Origin: Bacteroidales bacterium H10
Lineage (GTDB): Bacteria; Bacteroidota; Bacteroidia; Bacteroidales; Muribaculaceae
DNA length: 9,430 bases
NCBI GenBank assembly: GCA_001701295.1
Contig: DAAV01000116.1
Coordinates: 182 to 9,611, forward strand
Direction of reading: 5' to 3'
Shown here: in pieces, positions 3,220 through 9,430 of the stretch
How the letters are laid out: each line of letters starts with the position of its first letter
Numbering within the stretch: position 1 is the first letter of the stretch
Notes under the pieces: generated by a model
Database searches by the model: none
What the model was told of the DNA's origin: nothing
Seen by the model: the letters and a program-made list of their open reading frames with translations, nothing else
Made by a program: the position numbers and the translations under genes

Positions 3220-4488
3220 ATGGATATCGAATACAAGTATTTACGACCGAAGAAAGCAGCCCTTCTCAAGTCAAGATACGAGATTTATCGTGATTATGGC
3301 GAGTCACGTATCACTGCTGTTTCTGACGGAGCCGTTGTCCCGCCCTATATCGACAGTCATGGAGATTTAATTGCCGGCGTTGTCGATGATTCCGGGAGAT
3401 TTGTCGTTGACTCGCATTGTGTCGATTTTCCTGAAGAGATAGAGCAACATGCATCCAGCCTGATCTTCAATAAAGAAGATAAAATCATTGTTTATCTGGG
3501 CTATTTTAATCAGCATTGGGGGCATTTCATAACGGATTGTCTTTCTACATTTTGGTTTCTCGGAAAGATAGACGCAGACAAATATGTTTTCAGCTGTGAA
3601 ACAGGGTCACCTGAAATACATCCAAATATTAGATTAGCTCTCAATCTTTTGGGCGTATGGGATAAGATTGAGATTGTTTCCCGTCCGGTCAGGTACAGGA
3701 AAGTATATGTTCCTCGCAGAGGAATGATTCCCCGGGATTATATTCTTAAGGAATCGTCCGTGGTATATGATAAGATCATAGATGCCGCTTCGGAAGAGTT
3801 GCCCGATATGGATTATCCTGAGAAATTAATTCTCGGTCGGTCGCAGTTGGCTAAGGCGATAGAGAACGATTATGGTACTATTGAGATCGAGCAGTTCTTC
3901 AAGGACAACGGTTTTGTAGCGATTTTTCCTGAGAAAATCACCCTTGTGCAATTGATCGGATACCTTGCGAATGCGCGTGAGGTTATGGTAATATCAGGTA
4001 CGCTTGCACACAATATGCTTTTTGCTCCTTGCGGATCAAGGCTGATTGTAATTGAAAAATATCCGAATATCAATAATTATCAGCAGGGTATAGATCGGTT
4101 GAAGAACTTGAAAGTGACATATATTGACGCTTCATATTTCATTTGGCCTGTCTCTCCGGGGCTTGGCCCTTTTATAATGTCTGATACTCTTTGTTTGCAA
4201 AGTTATGCCAAAGATTTTAACTTTACAGCGCCCTCCCCTTTTAATCGTGACAGGAAAGTGCTCCGTAAGTTCTTTAGAAAGTATTACAAGCATTATAAAC
4301 GAAGACTGATCTCACCCGAATGGCTTGAATCTGAAATCGGTCTGTTCAACGAGGCTTATCAAGAGTCGTTTGATGTTTTCGGAAAATGGCTCAGTGGTGT
4401 TCGCCCTATATTTCTATCGGATGCGTTACGTCCGAGATACATTGTGAAAAATCTTTTAAGGTATATTGGCAAGCTTAGAAAGTCTTGA
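3220..4488 (+). CDS. Family-61 (DUF563-like) glycosyltransferase
   Basis: Predicted to transfer a sugar onto a surface polysaccharide or glycan; donor and acceptor are not readable. The 422-residue protein shows the family pattern: YFNQHWGHFITDCLSTFW (95-112) with the conserved His-Phe (H102, F103) and D106, the Arg-containing LILGRSQ (203-209), ENDYGTIEIEQFF (215-227), then the C-terminal core with IFPEKITLVQLIGYLA (235-250) and MVISGTLAHNMLFAP (256-270). There is no signal peptide or transmembrane helix. The last ~90 residues (about 330-422) are rich in Lys, Arg and Tyr (for example FFRKYYKHYKRR, 351-362) and could associate with the membrane. The ATG at 3220 is preferred over an in-frame TTG at 3208 because it suits the upstream promoter. 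It stands alone, with lower G+C than dnaX and the synthetase and direct repeats on both sides, consistent with acquisition as a cassette. Confidence 0.87.
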   Translation: MDIEYKYLRPKKAALLKSRYEIYRDYGESRITAVSDGAVVPPYIDSHGDLIAGVVDDSGRFVVDSHCVDFPEEIEQHASSLIFNKEDKIIVYLGYFNQHWGHFITDCLSTFWFLGKIDADKYVFSCETGSPEIHPNIRLALNLLGVWDKIEIVSRPVRYRKVYVPRRGMIPRDYILKESSVVYDKIIDAASEELPDMDYPEKLILGRSQLAKAIENDYGTIEIEQFFKDNGFVAIFPEKITLVQLIGYLANAREVMVISGTLAHNMLFAPCGSRLIVIEKYPNINNYQQGIDRLKNLKVTYIDASYFIWPVSPGLGPFIMSDTLCLQSYAKDFNFTAPSPFNRDRKVLRKFFRKYYKHYKRRLISPEWLESEIGLFNEAYQESFDVFGKWLSGVRPIFLSDALRPRYIVKNLLRYIGKLRKS

Positions 4489-4518
4489 ATAAAGTTCTCT
4501 GCAGGCTTCTTATCTTTG
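4485..4518 (+). promoter_or_regulatory. Weak promoter-like pair at the end of the glycosyltransferase gene
   Basis: TTG (4485-4487, overlapping the stop codon) and an exact TAnnTTTG match, TATCTTTG (4511-4518), point rightward into direct-repeat copy 2. The 23-base spacing is longer than the usual 19-21, and no gene follows on this strand before the converging flavin reductase. If active, it would produce a short RNA through the repeat. Confidence 0.22.
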
Positions 4519-4530
4519 CTTTATCACACC
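4510..4530 (+). repeat. 21-bp sequence shared with 2251-2271 (intergenic copy)
   Basis: An exact copy of the 21 bases found inside the acyl-CoA synthetase gene. Here it lies 22 bases after the glycosyltransferase stop and 7 bases before direct-repeat copy 2, and contains the promoter-like TATCTTTG. A chance match of this length within 9.4 kb is unlikely, although A+T bias weakens that argument. Confidence 0.7.
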
Positions 4531-4537
4531 ATCTTAC

Positions 4538-4656
4538 ATTATGGCACATATTTGATTAAAAATGATAAATATGCAATTGTGGACGGATAAACGGCTGTAA
4601 ATTAGCAAGTGCGCATGATTCCTCATCAGTAATCACACGCACTTGAAAAATTTCTA
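4538..4656 (+). repeat. ~120-bp direct repeat, copy 2 (right of the glycosyltransferase gene)
   Basis: The same-orientation partner of 2821-2940, lying between the converging glycosyltransferase and flavin-reductase genes. Its hairpin differs from copy 1: the outer stem is stronger (AAGTGCG with CGCACTT, 7 bp), then two mismatches, then TGATT with AATCA. Compensation between inner and outer stems in the two copies hints that a folded structure may be kept. No T-run follows the stem on either strand, so it is not a standard intrinsic terminator. Confidence 0.85.
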
Positions 4657-5251: not shown

Positions 5252-5363
5252 GACAGTTTCAGATTTATTATATTATTAAGTTCAGATTTCGATAGCATGT
5301 CTCCTAATAATAACCCGTACCGGCCGGAAAAGTTTTAGATTTTTCCTGGTGTTGTTGTCTCAT

Positions 5364-5401
5364 AAAAAGACGAGAGAGAAAACCTCAGGGTTCTCCCTCT
5401 C
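5364..5401 (-). terminator. Intrinsic terminator of the tracrRNA
   Basis: On the minus strand a 13-base arm (GAGAGGGAGAACC) pairs with GGTTTTCTCTCTC across a CTGA loop, using Watson-Crick pairs plus two G-U pairs, and is followed by GTCTTTTT. This is a standard rho-independent terminator and also the last stem-loop of the tracrRNA. Confidence 0.88.
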
Positions 5402-5455
5402 CAGATGTTTTCACAACGGAATAATCCTTATTGTGATTTGCTTCGATTATTTTGC
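5364..5455 (-). ncRNA. tracrRNA of the type II CRISPR-Cas system
   Basis: A roughly 92-nt RNA predicted to pair with the crRNA repeat and hold it in Cas9. Read on the minus strand, it starts near TGATGCAAAATAATCG, continues with the anti-repeat AAGCAAATCACAAT (5430-5443), then the nexus AAGGATTATTCCGTTGTG (5412-5429), which resembles the AAGG...CCGTT nexus of known tracrRNAs, a linker AAAACATCTG, and the terminator stem. The complement of the anti-repeat, ATTGTGATTTGCTT, closely resembles the start GTTGTGATTTGCTT that I recall for Bacteroides II-C CRISPR repeats. The promoter directly upstream fits in position and spacing. It is divergent from cas9, with its promoter-proximal end facing the gene. 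The exact 5' end is inferred from the -7 box. Confidence 0.85.
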
Positions 5456-5475
5456 ATCACAAAGGTATGCAAAAT
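5449..5475. repeat. 9-bp inverted repeat around the tracrRNA -7 box
   Basis: ATTTTGCAT (5449-5457) and ATGCAAAAT (5467-5475) form perfect arms around a 9-base centre. The -7 box of the tracrRNA promoter occupies 5460-5467, so the arms bracket it. This is an operator-like arrangement. Alternatively the left arm is simply the first part of the tracrRNA and the symmetry is incidental to A+T-rich DNA. Confidence 0.6.
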
Positions 5476-5491
5476 TGAAATAAAATGCAAA
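5460..5491 (-). promoter_or_regulatory. tracrRNA promoter
   Basis: On the minus strand, TTTG (5491-5488) is followed after exactly 20 bases by TACCTTTG (5467-5460). Both elements match the Bacteroidetes -33/-7 consensus exactly at the usual spacing. Transcription would begin near 5455, at the start of the predicted anti-repeat. Confidence 0.75.
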
Positions 5492-5507
5492 TTTTATTTC
5501 AATTTTG
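5470..5507. repeat. 17-bp perfect inverted repeat between the tracrRNA and cas9 promoters
   Basis: The arm CAAAATTGAAATAAAAT (5470-5486) is the exact reverse complement of ATTTTATTTCAATTTTG (5491-5507), separated by GCAA. It covers the -33 box and spacer of the tracrRNA promoter and ends at the TTTG that may serve as the cas9 -33 box. No T-run or gene end suits a terminator role. A dimeric regulator site is the simplest reading. Confidence 0.85.
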
Positions 5508-5659: not shown

Positions 5660-8600
5660 ATGAACGTACTTGGACTTGATCTTGGAACCACATCTATAGG
5701 ATGGGCCTTAATTGAGATTGATGATAATAATAATCCCGTTTCAATATTAGGAATGGGCAGTCGTATAATCCCATATAGCGACGACACTACTGCAGCCGAT
5801 TTCTCCAAAGGACGTGGAGAAAGTCCTTGTGCGGAACGAACGCGGTGCCGGCAGATGAGGAGAAATTTAGACCGTTTCCAGTTGCATCGGGAACAACTTA
5901 AAAAACTGTTGGTTGAAATTGGAATGATCGATTCACATTTCAGATTATCACCGGCAAGTCCGTTGGAAGTATGGAAATCAAGAGCTGACGCTGCTACTCC
6001 CGGCACAAGACTTTCCTTGGAAAATCTGGCGGCAGTGTTGTTTCATATAAATCATCGGCGGGGATACAAGCATGCCAAATCAGATCTTGGTGATTCCAAT
6101 CAGACCGATTATGTCGCTAAAATCAATGATCGTTATTTAGAGATGCAAGAAACGGGCGAAACCGTCGGTCAATATTTCTATGCCAAACTCAAGGAATCAG
6201 AAGTAATTAATCCCAATGGCAAAAGATATTATACATATCGCGTAAAAGAGAAAGTGTGTCCCCGCAAAGCTTATGAAGAGGAGGTGGACAGTATTTTAAA
6301 GGTTCAAAGCGAATTTTATCCGGAGATACTGACGGAAGAGAATCAGATCGCGATCAAACAGATTATTTTCTATCAGCGACCTTTGAAGTCTTGCAAAAAT
6401 CTTGTGTCTTTCTGTGAATTTGAACGTCGTGAGTTTCTTAACAAAAGAGGGAAGAAGGTAGAAAGCGGACCTAAAGTCACTCCCCGCACATCTCCCTTAG
6501 CTCAGGTCTGCAGAATATATGAATCCATCAATAATATAAAACTTGTTAATTCTCGGCTTCGAAGCAGAAAATCAGATCATCTCCCGTCACTTTTTGATGA
6601 TCCGGCTTCTGCTCCGAAGGGAGCCCGCAAACTTATGCCTGAGTATATTTTTACGGATGAGGAAAGAGACAGGATTTTTGATTTTCTCAATACAAATGAG
6701 AAAATGACAGAGAAGGATCTTCTTAAGATTTTAGGTCTGACATCTGATGACGGGTACAAATCAGATAAAGCACTCGGCAAAGGAATTCAGGGCAATACGA
6801 CCCGATGTCAGATTGCCAAAGCTCTCGGAAACTGTCCGAACAGGAATAAATTTCTGAGCTTTGAGATTTCTGAGGAGATCCCGGCCTCTAATCCTGATGT
6901 TGATAAAAACACCGGCGAGATACTTCCGCGTGTAGCTTCTTTCTTTACACGACAGCCTTTTTATATGTTGTGGCATACACTATATTCCATCAATGACAAG
7001 GATGAACTGTTCAAGGTTCTGTCAGAGAAATTTGGAATCAGTGATACTGAAACGTTGAACCGTCTTTATGCTCTTGATTTTGTAAAGGCCGGTTATGCCA
7101 ATAAATCTGCAAAATTTATCCGCAAACTCTTGCCATTGTTAAAGAAAGGGCTGAAGTACAGTGATGCGTGTGTGGTGCTTGGCATAAATCATAGCAATAG
7201 CCTGACGAAGGATGAAAATAATAAAAGAGAATTACAACACCATCTCAAGTCTATTCATAAAGGAGAACTACGGCAACCGGTAGTTGAGAAAATACTCAAT
7301 CAGACGGTCAATGTCGTAAATGCCATTATTGACGAGTACGGCGTAATAGATGAAGTTCGCGTGGAACTGGCACGCGAACTGAAAAGAGATAAGGAAGGCC
7401 GCGAAAAAATGGCACAGGATATTTCGCGGCTTGAACGTGAGAACAAGGCTTTGGAAAAAGAGGTTGCGGAATTGGATATTCTGCCTACGCGTCGGCGTAT
7501 TCAGAAAATGAAAATGCTGAAGGAGACGGAAAATAAATGTATGTATTGCGGAAAGCCAATTACACCTTATCAGTTCATAGAGGGACATGGATATGATATA
7601 GAGCATATAATTCCTCGTTCAAGGATGTTTGATGACAGCCTGGCCAATAAGGTATGCGCATGTAGGGAGTGTAATGCCTCCAAAGGTGCAATGACGGCAT
7701 TCGATTTTATGAAGTCGAGAGGAGAGCATGAATTTAATTCCTACCTTGACCGTGTAGAGGATTTATATAAAAACAATAGGATTTCGAGAGGTAAACGCGA
7801 TAGGCTTCTGATGTCGGGCTCGGCAATTCCAGAGAATTTTATTGAGAGAGATTTACGGGAGACCCAGTATATCTCTCGTAAATCCAAGGAAATACTTTCT
7901 GGCGTGATCCGTAATGTATATGCTTCTTCCGGAAGGGTAACTGACTTTTTCCGACATGCCTGGGGATATGACACGATTCTGCACGATATCAACTTTCCGC
8001 GATATGAAAGTGCCGGATTGACCGAGGTAGTGGAATATGAGACTCATGGTCAGAAACATACGGCACGCCGAATCAGAGACTGGTCGAAACGTAAGGATCA
8101 CAGACACCATGCGCTGGACGCTTTGGTGGTAGCCTTGACGCGCCAGGGGTACATACAGCGTCTTAATACTCTGAATGCTTTGTCCGAAGTTGATGAAGAC
8201 TCGGCCGAATGGCATGGCCTGGATAAATGGGCAGCCGAAAGACCGCATATAGATCGGGCAACGGTTGTAAAAGCTTTGGAAGAAGTGGCGGTATCGTTTA
8301 AATCAGGTAAAAAACTGACGACACCGGGGAAGCGATATATCCGCAAAAACGGTAAACGAATATGCGTGCAGACAGGAATTGTGATTCCTCGTGCTCCGCT
8401 GCATAAGGAGACAGTTTACGGACGTATAAAGGTTGACGATGGTGAAAAGAAATTGAAATTTGCTCTTGACAATCTTGACCTCATAAAAAATATTGATATT
8501 CGTAGGCAACTTGAACTGCGGTTGCGGCAGAATGACGGAGACAAGAAAAAAACTTTAAAGGAGCTTAAGAAAAATCCCATAGAGATCAATGGCTGCACTG

Positions 8601-9430
8601 TAGAAAGCATCGGATGTTACCGCGAAGAGATTGTTGTAAAATATCCCGTTGAATCAATCGTGTATAAAGATCTGCGTTATATTGTGGATGCGCATATACG
8701 GAAGATCTTAGAGACTCGGTTTGGAGAAGTCGGGAATGTGGATAAAGAGTTCGTGAAAAGTCTCTCAGAACGACCATTATATTCGGATAAGGCTTGTAAG
8801 CAACGAATCAGGACAGTAAGACTGTTTTCCGGTATCAAGATGTCGACTATGGCCGGAGTGCGCAAAGATGATCATGGCAAAATAGTCGGATATGCACAGA
8901 AACGCAATAATCATCATGTGGCCTTTTATAGAAACCCCGATGGCAAGATCGTGGAATCAGTGGTGAGCTTTTGGGATTGTGTCAAGCGGAAAAATGCCGG
9001 TTTGCCATCTATAATCAAGAAACCGAATGATGCCTGGGATACTCTTGTTGCGATGGGAGACTCGGATTGCGTGGAAGAGATTGCAAAGATTTTTCCTCCT
9101 GTCGGCAGTGAGTTTGTGATGTCACTGCAACGCAACGAAATGGTAGTGCTCGGCATGTCGGATGATGAATGGAATGATGCTGTCGCGTCTCGAGATAGGC
9201 GCATTATCAATCGGCATCTTTATAGGGTATGGAAGTTGTCCTTAGGTGTGTATTGCTTTAAATACCACACAAACACTACGGCAGCCATAGAGGATGGCGA
9301 CAAGGAAATAAAACAATACTATATAATTAAGTCGATATCTTCTTTAGCTGCTTTGCATCCTCGGAAAGTATCGATATCGATATTGGGTAAGCTTAATCTT
9401 CTCTCCGATGATAAAGAAAACATTATGTTT
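5660..9430 (+). CDS. cas9: CRISPR-associated endonuclease Cas9, type II-C-like (3' end beyond the window)
   Basis: RNA-guided DNA endonuclease; HNH cuts the strand paired to the crRNA and RuvC the other. 1257 codons are readable with no stop or frameshift. RuvC-I is VLGLDLGTTSIGWAL (3-17) with D7. An arginine-rich bridge helix follows (about 56-80, ERTRCRQMRRNL). The REC lobe spans roughly 90-545 and includes NKSAKFIRKLLPLLKKGLKY (481-500), a II-C-like pattern. RuvC-II is VRVELARELK (566-575) with E569. HNH has YDIEHIIPRS (645-654) with H649 and N663, framed by cysteine pairs C627/C630 and C668/C671 (likely zinc). RuvC-III is DHRHHALDALVVAL (813-826) with H817 and D820. The rest is wedge and PAM-interacting region. 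Bacteroidetes II-C proteins often have about 1400-1500 residues, so some 150-250 may be missing. The ATG at 5660 fits the canonical N terminus exactly. The divergent tracrRNA upstream supports an active system. Confidence 0.96.
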   Translation, partial: MNVLGLDLGTTSIGWALIEIDDNNNPVSILGMGSRIIPYSDDTTAADFSKGRGESPCAERTRCRQMRRNLDRFQLHREQLKKLLVEIGMIDSHFRLSPASPLEVWKSRADAATPGTRLSLENLAAVLFHINHRRGYKHAKSDLGDSNQTDYVAKINDRYLEMQETGETVGQYFYAKLKESEVINPNGKRYYTYRVKEKVCPRKAYEEEVDSILKVQSEFYPEILTEENQIAIKQIIFYQRPLKSCKNLVSFCEFERREFLNKRGKKVESGPKVTPRTSPLAQVCRIYESINNIKLVNSRLRSRKSDHLPSLFDDPASAPKGARKLMPEYIFTDEERDRIFDFLNTNEKMTEKDLLKILGLTSDDGYKSDKALGKGIQGNTTRCQIAKALGNCPNRNKFLSFEISEEIPASNPDVDKNTGEILPRVASFFTRQPFYMLWHTLYSINDKDELFKVLSEKFGISDTETLNRLYALDFVKAGYANKSAKFIRKLLPLLKKGLKYSDACVVLGINHSNSLTKDENNKRELQHHLKSIHKGELRQPVVEKILNQTVNVVNAIIDEYGVIDEVRVELARELKRDKEGREKMAQDISRLERENKALEKEVAELDILPTRRRIQKMKMLKETENKCMYCGKPITPYQFIEGHGYDIEHIIPRSRMFDDSLANKVCACRECNASKGAMTAFDFMKSRGEHEFNSYLDRVEDLYKNNRISRGKRDRLLMSGSAIPENFIERDLRETQYISRKSKEILSGVIRNVYASSGRVTDFFRHAWGYDTILHDINFPRYESAGLTEVVEYETHGQKHTARRIRDWSKRKDHRHHALDALVVALTRQGYIQRLNTLNALSEVDEDSAEWHGLDKWAAERPHIDRATVVKALEEVAVSFKSGKKLTTPGKRYIRKNGKRICVQTGIVIPRAPLHKETVYGRIKVDDGEKKLKFALDNLDLIKNIDIRRQLELRLRQNDGDKKKTLKELKKNPIEINGCTVESIGCYREEIVVKYPVESIVYKDLRYIVDAHIRKILETRFGEVGNVDKEFVKSLSERPLYSDKACKQRIRTVRLFSGIKMSTMAGVRKDDHGKIVGYAQKRNNHHVAFYRNPDGKIVESVVSFWDCVKRKNAGLPSIIKKPNDAWDTLVAMGDSDCVEEIAKIFPPVGSEFVMSLQRNEMVVLGMSDDEWNDAVASRDRRIINRHLYRVWKLSLGVYCFKYHTNTTAAIEDGDKEIKQYYIIKSISSLAALHPRKVSISILGKLNLLSDDKENIMF

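Follow-up and report, generated by a model that had tools for sequence, protein, structure and literature searches.

Type II-C CRISPR loci have been described from three other species, Riemerella anatipestifer (PMC5006608), Flavobacterium psychrophilum (PMC10309648) and F. columnare (PMC8092290), where, according to excerpts of these papers, cas9 is accompanied by cas1, cas2 and an array, and the anti-repeat adjoins cas9. Both the anti-repeat (TGAAAGCAATTCACAA) and the 47-nt repeats of R. anatipestifer resemble in kind those reported below (PMC5006608, excerpt). The excerpts of all three papers do not describe the two-box tracrRNA promoter found here, and the F. psychrophilum authors state that transcription of the tracrRNA was not revealed (PMC10309648, excerpt). 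By sequence, the closest Cas9 of solved structure is CbCas9 (PDB 8iyq and others; 223 bits), which is type II-C according to an excerpt of PMC13153721; the likeness is one of Cas9 sequence, and the PDB chain has 1442 aa compared to 1257 codons in the locus studied here.

We analyzed a 9,430-nt stretch of a Muribaculaceae genome, Bacteroidales bacterium H10 (hereafter the window), and conclude with near certainty that positions 5364–5491 carry all sequence parts of a tracrRNA gene, likely serving the adjoining II-C Cas9, with its own predicted Bacteroidota promoter and with transcription predicted to run away from cas9. The gene is genuine but, as II-C tracrRNA genes go, ordinary: its type is shared widely among relatives.

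The tracrRNA gene and its surroundings

The cas9 gene occupies 5660–9430 on the plus strand (TIGR01865, 499.1 bits against a cut-off of 100) and has both the RuvC and the HNH domain expected of type II-C (RuvC_III and HNH_4). Its frame is still open at the window end (9430) after 1257 codons, so that the window stops either within cas9 or right at its end; given that the nearest related Cas9, from a Muribaculaceae MAG (locus L001), ends at 1256 aa, little or nothing is absent. No relative of the window Cas9 was found in viral contigs. To the left lie genes for a flavin-reductase-like protein, a glycosyltransferase-61, an AMP-binding ligase and a DNA polymerase III subunit. On this side we also observed two direct-repeat copies (2817–2937 and 4534–4652; 80–88% alike without gaps), each capable of forming a hairpin, that bracket the glycosyltransferase-61 gene (3220–4488), and an identical 21-base sequence at 2251–2271, inside the AMP-binding ligase gene, and at 4510–4530, just before the second direct-repeat copy. 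A 14-base piece of the direct repeats was absent from all 120 loci compared.

The original prediction of a complete tracrRNA gene with its own promoter, divergent from cas9, was borne out: the parts can be seen directly on the minus strand, with 223 nt from the anti-repeat to the cas9 start at 5660 on the plus strand. Excerpts of PMC7366714 and PMC12632263 give the Bacteroidota promoter consensus, which the former writes as TTTG / TAnnTTTG. In agreement with the form recognized by the primary sigma factor (TTTG near −33, TAnnTTTG at −7), the gene has a −33 box TTTG (5488–5491) and a −7 box TACCTTTG (5460–5467), both exact and 20 bases apart (TTTG-N20-TACCTTTG). Six bases separate the −7 box from the predicted start near 5453, and the predicted tracrRNA of ~90 nt covers 5364–5453, its start placed from the −7 box and its end from the terminator. 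The anti-repeat (5430–5456) reads ATTGTGATTTGCTT on the plus strand over 5430–5443, the portion that fits the predicted repeat start, with weaker pairing potential onward to ~5456. It is followed by the nexus hairpin AAGGA-UUAU-UCC (5418–5429; on the plus strand, TCCTT at 5425–5429 with GGA at 5418–5420), whose stem is kept in relatives, by the conserved GUUGUGAAAACAU (5405–5417), and by a terminator hairpin with a T-rich run (5362–5401). The terminator stem (5401–5372) has 13 pairs and a loop of 4, and then GTCTTTTTAT, in a longer reading GUCUUUUUAU; in L001 the letters of this hairpin differ and the stem is retained.

What we infer is that the gene is transcribed, where its RNA starts, that this RNA pairs in the cell and is bound by Cas9, and that the window has an array of its own. 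An RNA of ~90 nt would start near 5453 and be terminated at the hairpin 5401–5372; its anti-repeat would pair with the CRISPR repeat portion of the guide RNA, over the first ~14 bases of the repeat and some of the ~20 that follow, and its nexus and tail would bind Cas9. So paired with CRISPR guide RNAs, the tracrRNA would allow the adjoining Cas9 to cut invading DNA.

Two further features of the gene were observed. A perfect 17-bp palindrome with a 4-nt center (5470–5486 / 5491–5507) lies over the −33 box and is possibly an operator. This length was reached by none of 1000 dinucleotide shuffles of the region from the −7 box to cas9 (maximum 13), and the counterpart in L001 measures only 11 nt (91%). 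In the tracrRNA alone (5412–5435, minus strand), the anti-repeat end CACAA is predicted to fold onto the UUGUG after the nexus, which copies the letters at the start of the repeat itself. A covarying switch at this place found no support: the sole variant, L089 (TTACAAT), retains UUGUG, and the one doubly changed pair in the model helix is located in the nexus. The letters at this place hardly vary.

Conservation among related loci

A scan of genome contigs recovered L001 (71% in the best segment) and a Lentimicrobiaceae MAG (L002; 36%), and whole-genome searches (E ≤ 1e-40) detected a related Cas9 in 51 of the 397 genomes searched from the family and in 45 of 395 from the class. For 60 of these Cas9 loci, the surrounding stretch was collected for comparison, and the full set comprised 68 loci, including the window and one locus counted twice (L012 and L039). 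A pattern search located the tracrRNA core in 61/68, upstream of cas9 and in divergent orientation, and missed it in six; L003, with ~20 nt upstream, was excluded from this search by hand but is counted in the 68. A covariance model added four of the six missed loci (L045, L084, L102 and L107), bringing the total to 65/68. Miscalled cas9 starts, present at least in L102 and L107, probably explain why the pattern missed these two. The gene was not found in L097, in L050 (75 nt upstream) or in L003. Placement is not fixed, as the gene sits beyond the array and on the cas9 strand in L045 (3445–3560), and at the cas9 end on the other strand in L084 (6411–6520).

Conservation of the parts across the 61 loci is likewise observed directly. 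Both TCACAAT and CGTTGTGAAAACAT are present in 48/61, a near invariant core that makes the window tracrRNA a common scaffold; thus, the suggestion of a probably uncharacterized guide scaffold survives only for the exact letters, which may indeed be uncharacterized. The three nexus stem pairs are retained in 61/61, a few of them with both sides changed. L019 (5304–5415) and L025 (2229–2340) show a longer nexus hairpin in which GGA/UCC has become GAA/UUC, a double change that preserves the pair. Every locus (61/61) also passed a terminator check that was permissive and carried no control. As for the promoter, TTG stands at the right spacing in 53/61 (44 with an exact −7 box, nine with five of its six letters), six of the others have two of the three TTG letters and two have both faults; all six −7 letters are present in 50/61. 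The full arrangement, TTG-N18..21-TAnnTTTG, is thus exact in 44/61 compared to 0.26% of letter shuffles.

That the stretch is no tracrRNA gene and that boxes, hairpin and repeat-like letters merely coincide is an explanation to which we give practically no credence. Generic scans do stay near chance, with two terminator sites compared to 1.2 ± 1.0 in shuffles and three sigma-70 sites compared to 3.5 ± 2.0, and the Rfam tracrRNA family (RF02348) aligns end to end with 5462–5373 yet, at 24.1 bits (E 2.3), falls far under its gathering score of 70. On the other hand, a covariance model built from 18 relatives, with the window excluded, gave a single match in the window, at 89.8 bits and E = 1.9e-16 (E-values that are rough by the tool's own account), and the same parts occur in the same order in 61/68 loci. 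By the model of relatives and the nexus stem pairs, the window shares the nexus and tail structure common to related tracrRNAs. In addition, the segment 5466–5355 has a folding energy of −36.9 kcal/mol (z −4.5), and none of 200 shuffles was equally stable.

CRISPR repeats of the relatives

The anti-repeat had led to a prediction of how the CRISPR repeat outside the window begins, and the nearest relative matches it exactly. In L001, cas9 is followed by cas1 and cas2 (the next listed forward frame, 6497, is past the array), and beyond cas2 stand seven 47-nt repeats, oriented for reading toward the cas genes, whose consensus GTTGTGATTTGCTTTATTATTATTACTTTTGCAGTATGAATCACACC opens with GTTGTGATTTGCTT. 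Among distinct repeats of a wider sample, this start was seen in 32/77 of 44–48 nt, 1/25 of 36 nt and the single one of 57 nt. Matching repeats in relatives were observed directly in this way; for the window, the corresponding array would be a prediction from its sequence. Anti-repeats track their own repeats over ~22–33 nt, usually with a small gap past position 12, and in relatives' loci with both elements the own repeat was the best partner in 31/43 and among the top three in 37/43. Against the window anti-repeat, the repeat of L035 fits best (−30.0 kcal/mol, compared to −25.6 for L001 and a median of −22.3), and the window's own repeat therefore probably resembles that of L035.

These arrays also bear on whether the tracrRNA gene could be a relic of an organism that lost its array or adaptation genes and leaves the RNA unused. 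The window contains no array, cas1 or cas2, and of 67 loci scanned, arrays were detected in 51 and not in 16; short contigs account for many of the 16. However, the cas9 frame stays open throughout, with RuvC and HNH domains present, and neither the promoter and anti-repeat nor the nexus and terminator show damage, which would be unexpected for a relic. We consider this explanation highly improbable and retain the reading of a gene that likely serves its Cas9.

Candidate promoter boxes and length steps in the repeats

Many repeats of the relatives hold boxes of the tracrRNA promoter type (TTG-N18..20-TAnnTTTG), with repeat letters 2–4 serving as the TTG. In our first sample of 48 repeats, from which L108 and L110 were left out for cut boundaries and L118 was dropped from the repeat table by hand, the exact pair was present in 36/47 distinct repeats (0.5% of shuffles), and 45/47 came within one letter of the −7 box (8.6% of shuffles). 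We had also tried the TTTG of GATTTGC as the −33 box of the repeat, and rejected it; it lies ~12 bases ahead of the −7 box, and the GTTG of the repeat start 18–20 ahead. The notion that nearly all Bacteroidota II-C repeats carry the pair was contradicted by the wider sample, where it was exact in 43 of 104 distinct II-C-like repeats (defined by at least four copies and at least 9 of the 14 repeat-start letters): 41/77 of 44–48 nt, 1/25 of 36 nt, 0/1 of 57 nt and one repeat with a cut boundary. The pair is thus common in the 44–48-nt class and rare in the 36-nt class. It was exact in none of 19 other repeats on either strand, although, given these criteria, some of the 19 may be diverged type II arrays.

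Because many repeats hold these boxes, transcription of each guide RNA would begin at a promoter within the preceding repeat, with the array beyond cas2 read toward the cas genes in the relatives. In excerpts of earlier work, II-C repeats are reported to contain promoters in general (PMC12080349), in-repeat transcription is described for Flavobacterium II-C systems with TTG as the named motif (PMC8092290, PMC10309648), and for the 47-nt repeats of R. anatipestifer no promoter was found (PMC5006608). Within open-licence papers, we did not find the paired boxes in Bacteroidota repeats or the length steps described below.

The boxes could instead reflect shared ancestry of one repeat rather than promoters, with guides made from a single leader promoter. 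In keeping with this, the 47 repeats fall into 10 clusters at 80% identity, six with an exact copy, and the wider sample gave the low counts noted above (43/104, and 1/25 in the 36-nt class). On the other hand, conservation peaks at TA and TTTG and falls at the two letters between them and at the flanks (in a column profile centered at the best match to the box, a choice that inflates the box columns), the pair is missing from the 19 other repeats, and transcription within Flavobacterium II-C arrays has been reported (PMC8092290, PMC10309648; excerpts).

For the outermost, oldest repeat, a concentration of mutations in the first 15 nt was already reported, with the suggestion that its promoter must be retained (PMC12080349, excerpt). 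Of 48 arrays examined, 31 had a far end distinct from the contig end, and in 22 of these the outermost repeat departs from the consensus (including the copy of L040, which with 18 mismatches may be chance and was retained in the count). Changed letters amount to 140/504 before the −7 box, 4/132 in TA plus TTTG, 2/44 between TA and TTTG and 10/330 in the tail. Such a profile would fit a repeat that functions solely as a promoter, but the tail is preserved equally well, a point in favor of shared ancestry, as is the lack of a TTG 17–23 bases before the box in 13 of the 22; plain erosion starting at the outer edge is a competing explanation of the pattern. On balance, we regard shared ancestry as unlikely, though far from negligible, and continue with the boxes as candidate promoters.

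Repeat lengths also cluster. Among the 104 distinct II-C-like arrays, repeats measure 36 nt in 25, 44–48 nt in 77 (mostly 46–47) and 57 nt in one, with one array cut at 31; lengths of 37–43 and 49–56 are absent, and spacers are 29–31 nt in 103/104, the exception being the cut array. The 57-nt array (L127, genome G560; period 87) is a further step past 36 and 47 nt. In the first sample, with two cut repeats omitted, the tail after the −7 box spans 4–6 nt in the four 36-nt repeats and 13–17 nt in the others. Steps of 10–11 nt suggest that a repeat gains or loses entire turns of DNA. The suggestion comes from few changes, and part of the contrast between 36 and 47 nt is a clade difference. In a 61-row Cas1 tree (47 labeled), accounting for the 36-nt form takes three changes, each imposed by well-supported branches; in this tree L116, with 36-nt repeats, groups as sister to L108, whose period is 77. 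A more quickly built tree of 108 rows, which came with a long-branch warning, takes six changes, two of them forced.

Taken together, these observations allow a tentative reading that we consider possible but short of probable. The Bacteroidota II-C repeat would be a promoter-plus-guide module driven by the sigma factor that also serves the tracrRNA gene, with a length set by DNA geometry at 36, ~47 or 57 bp, next to a constant spacer of ~30. Length would change by whole turns because the adaptation integrase requires the two ends of a repeat to lie on the same helical face, and the guide RNA would start with ~10 nt of repeat tail in the 47-bp form or at the spacer itself in the 36-bp form.

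With a complete predicted tracrRNA in place and the expected repeat start borne out among relatives, a guide for this Cas9 could be tried before the array is found. The two side results on the repeats, the box pair and the length steps, are less ordinary than the tracrRNA gene and worth following. In many Bacteroidota, every guide RNA would be produced from a promoter within a repeat, of which the excerpt of the Riemerella paper records no sign (PMC5006608), and a change of repeat length by whole turns, if true, would bear on how the integrase measures the repeat.
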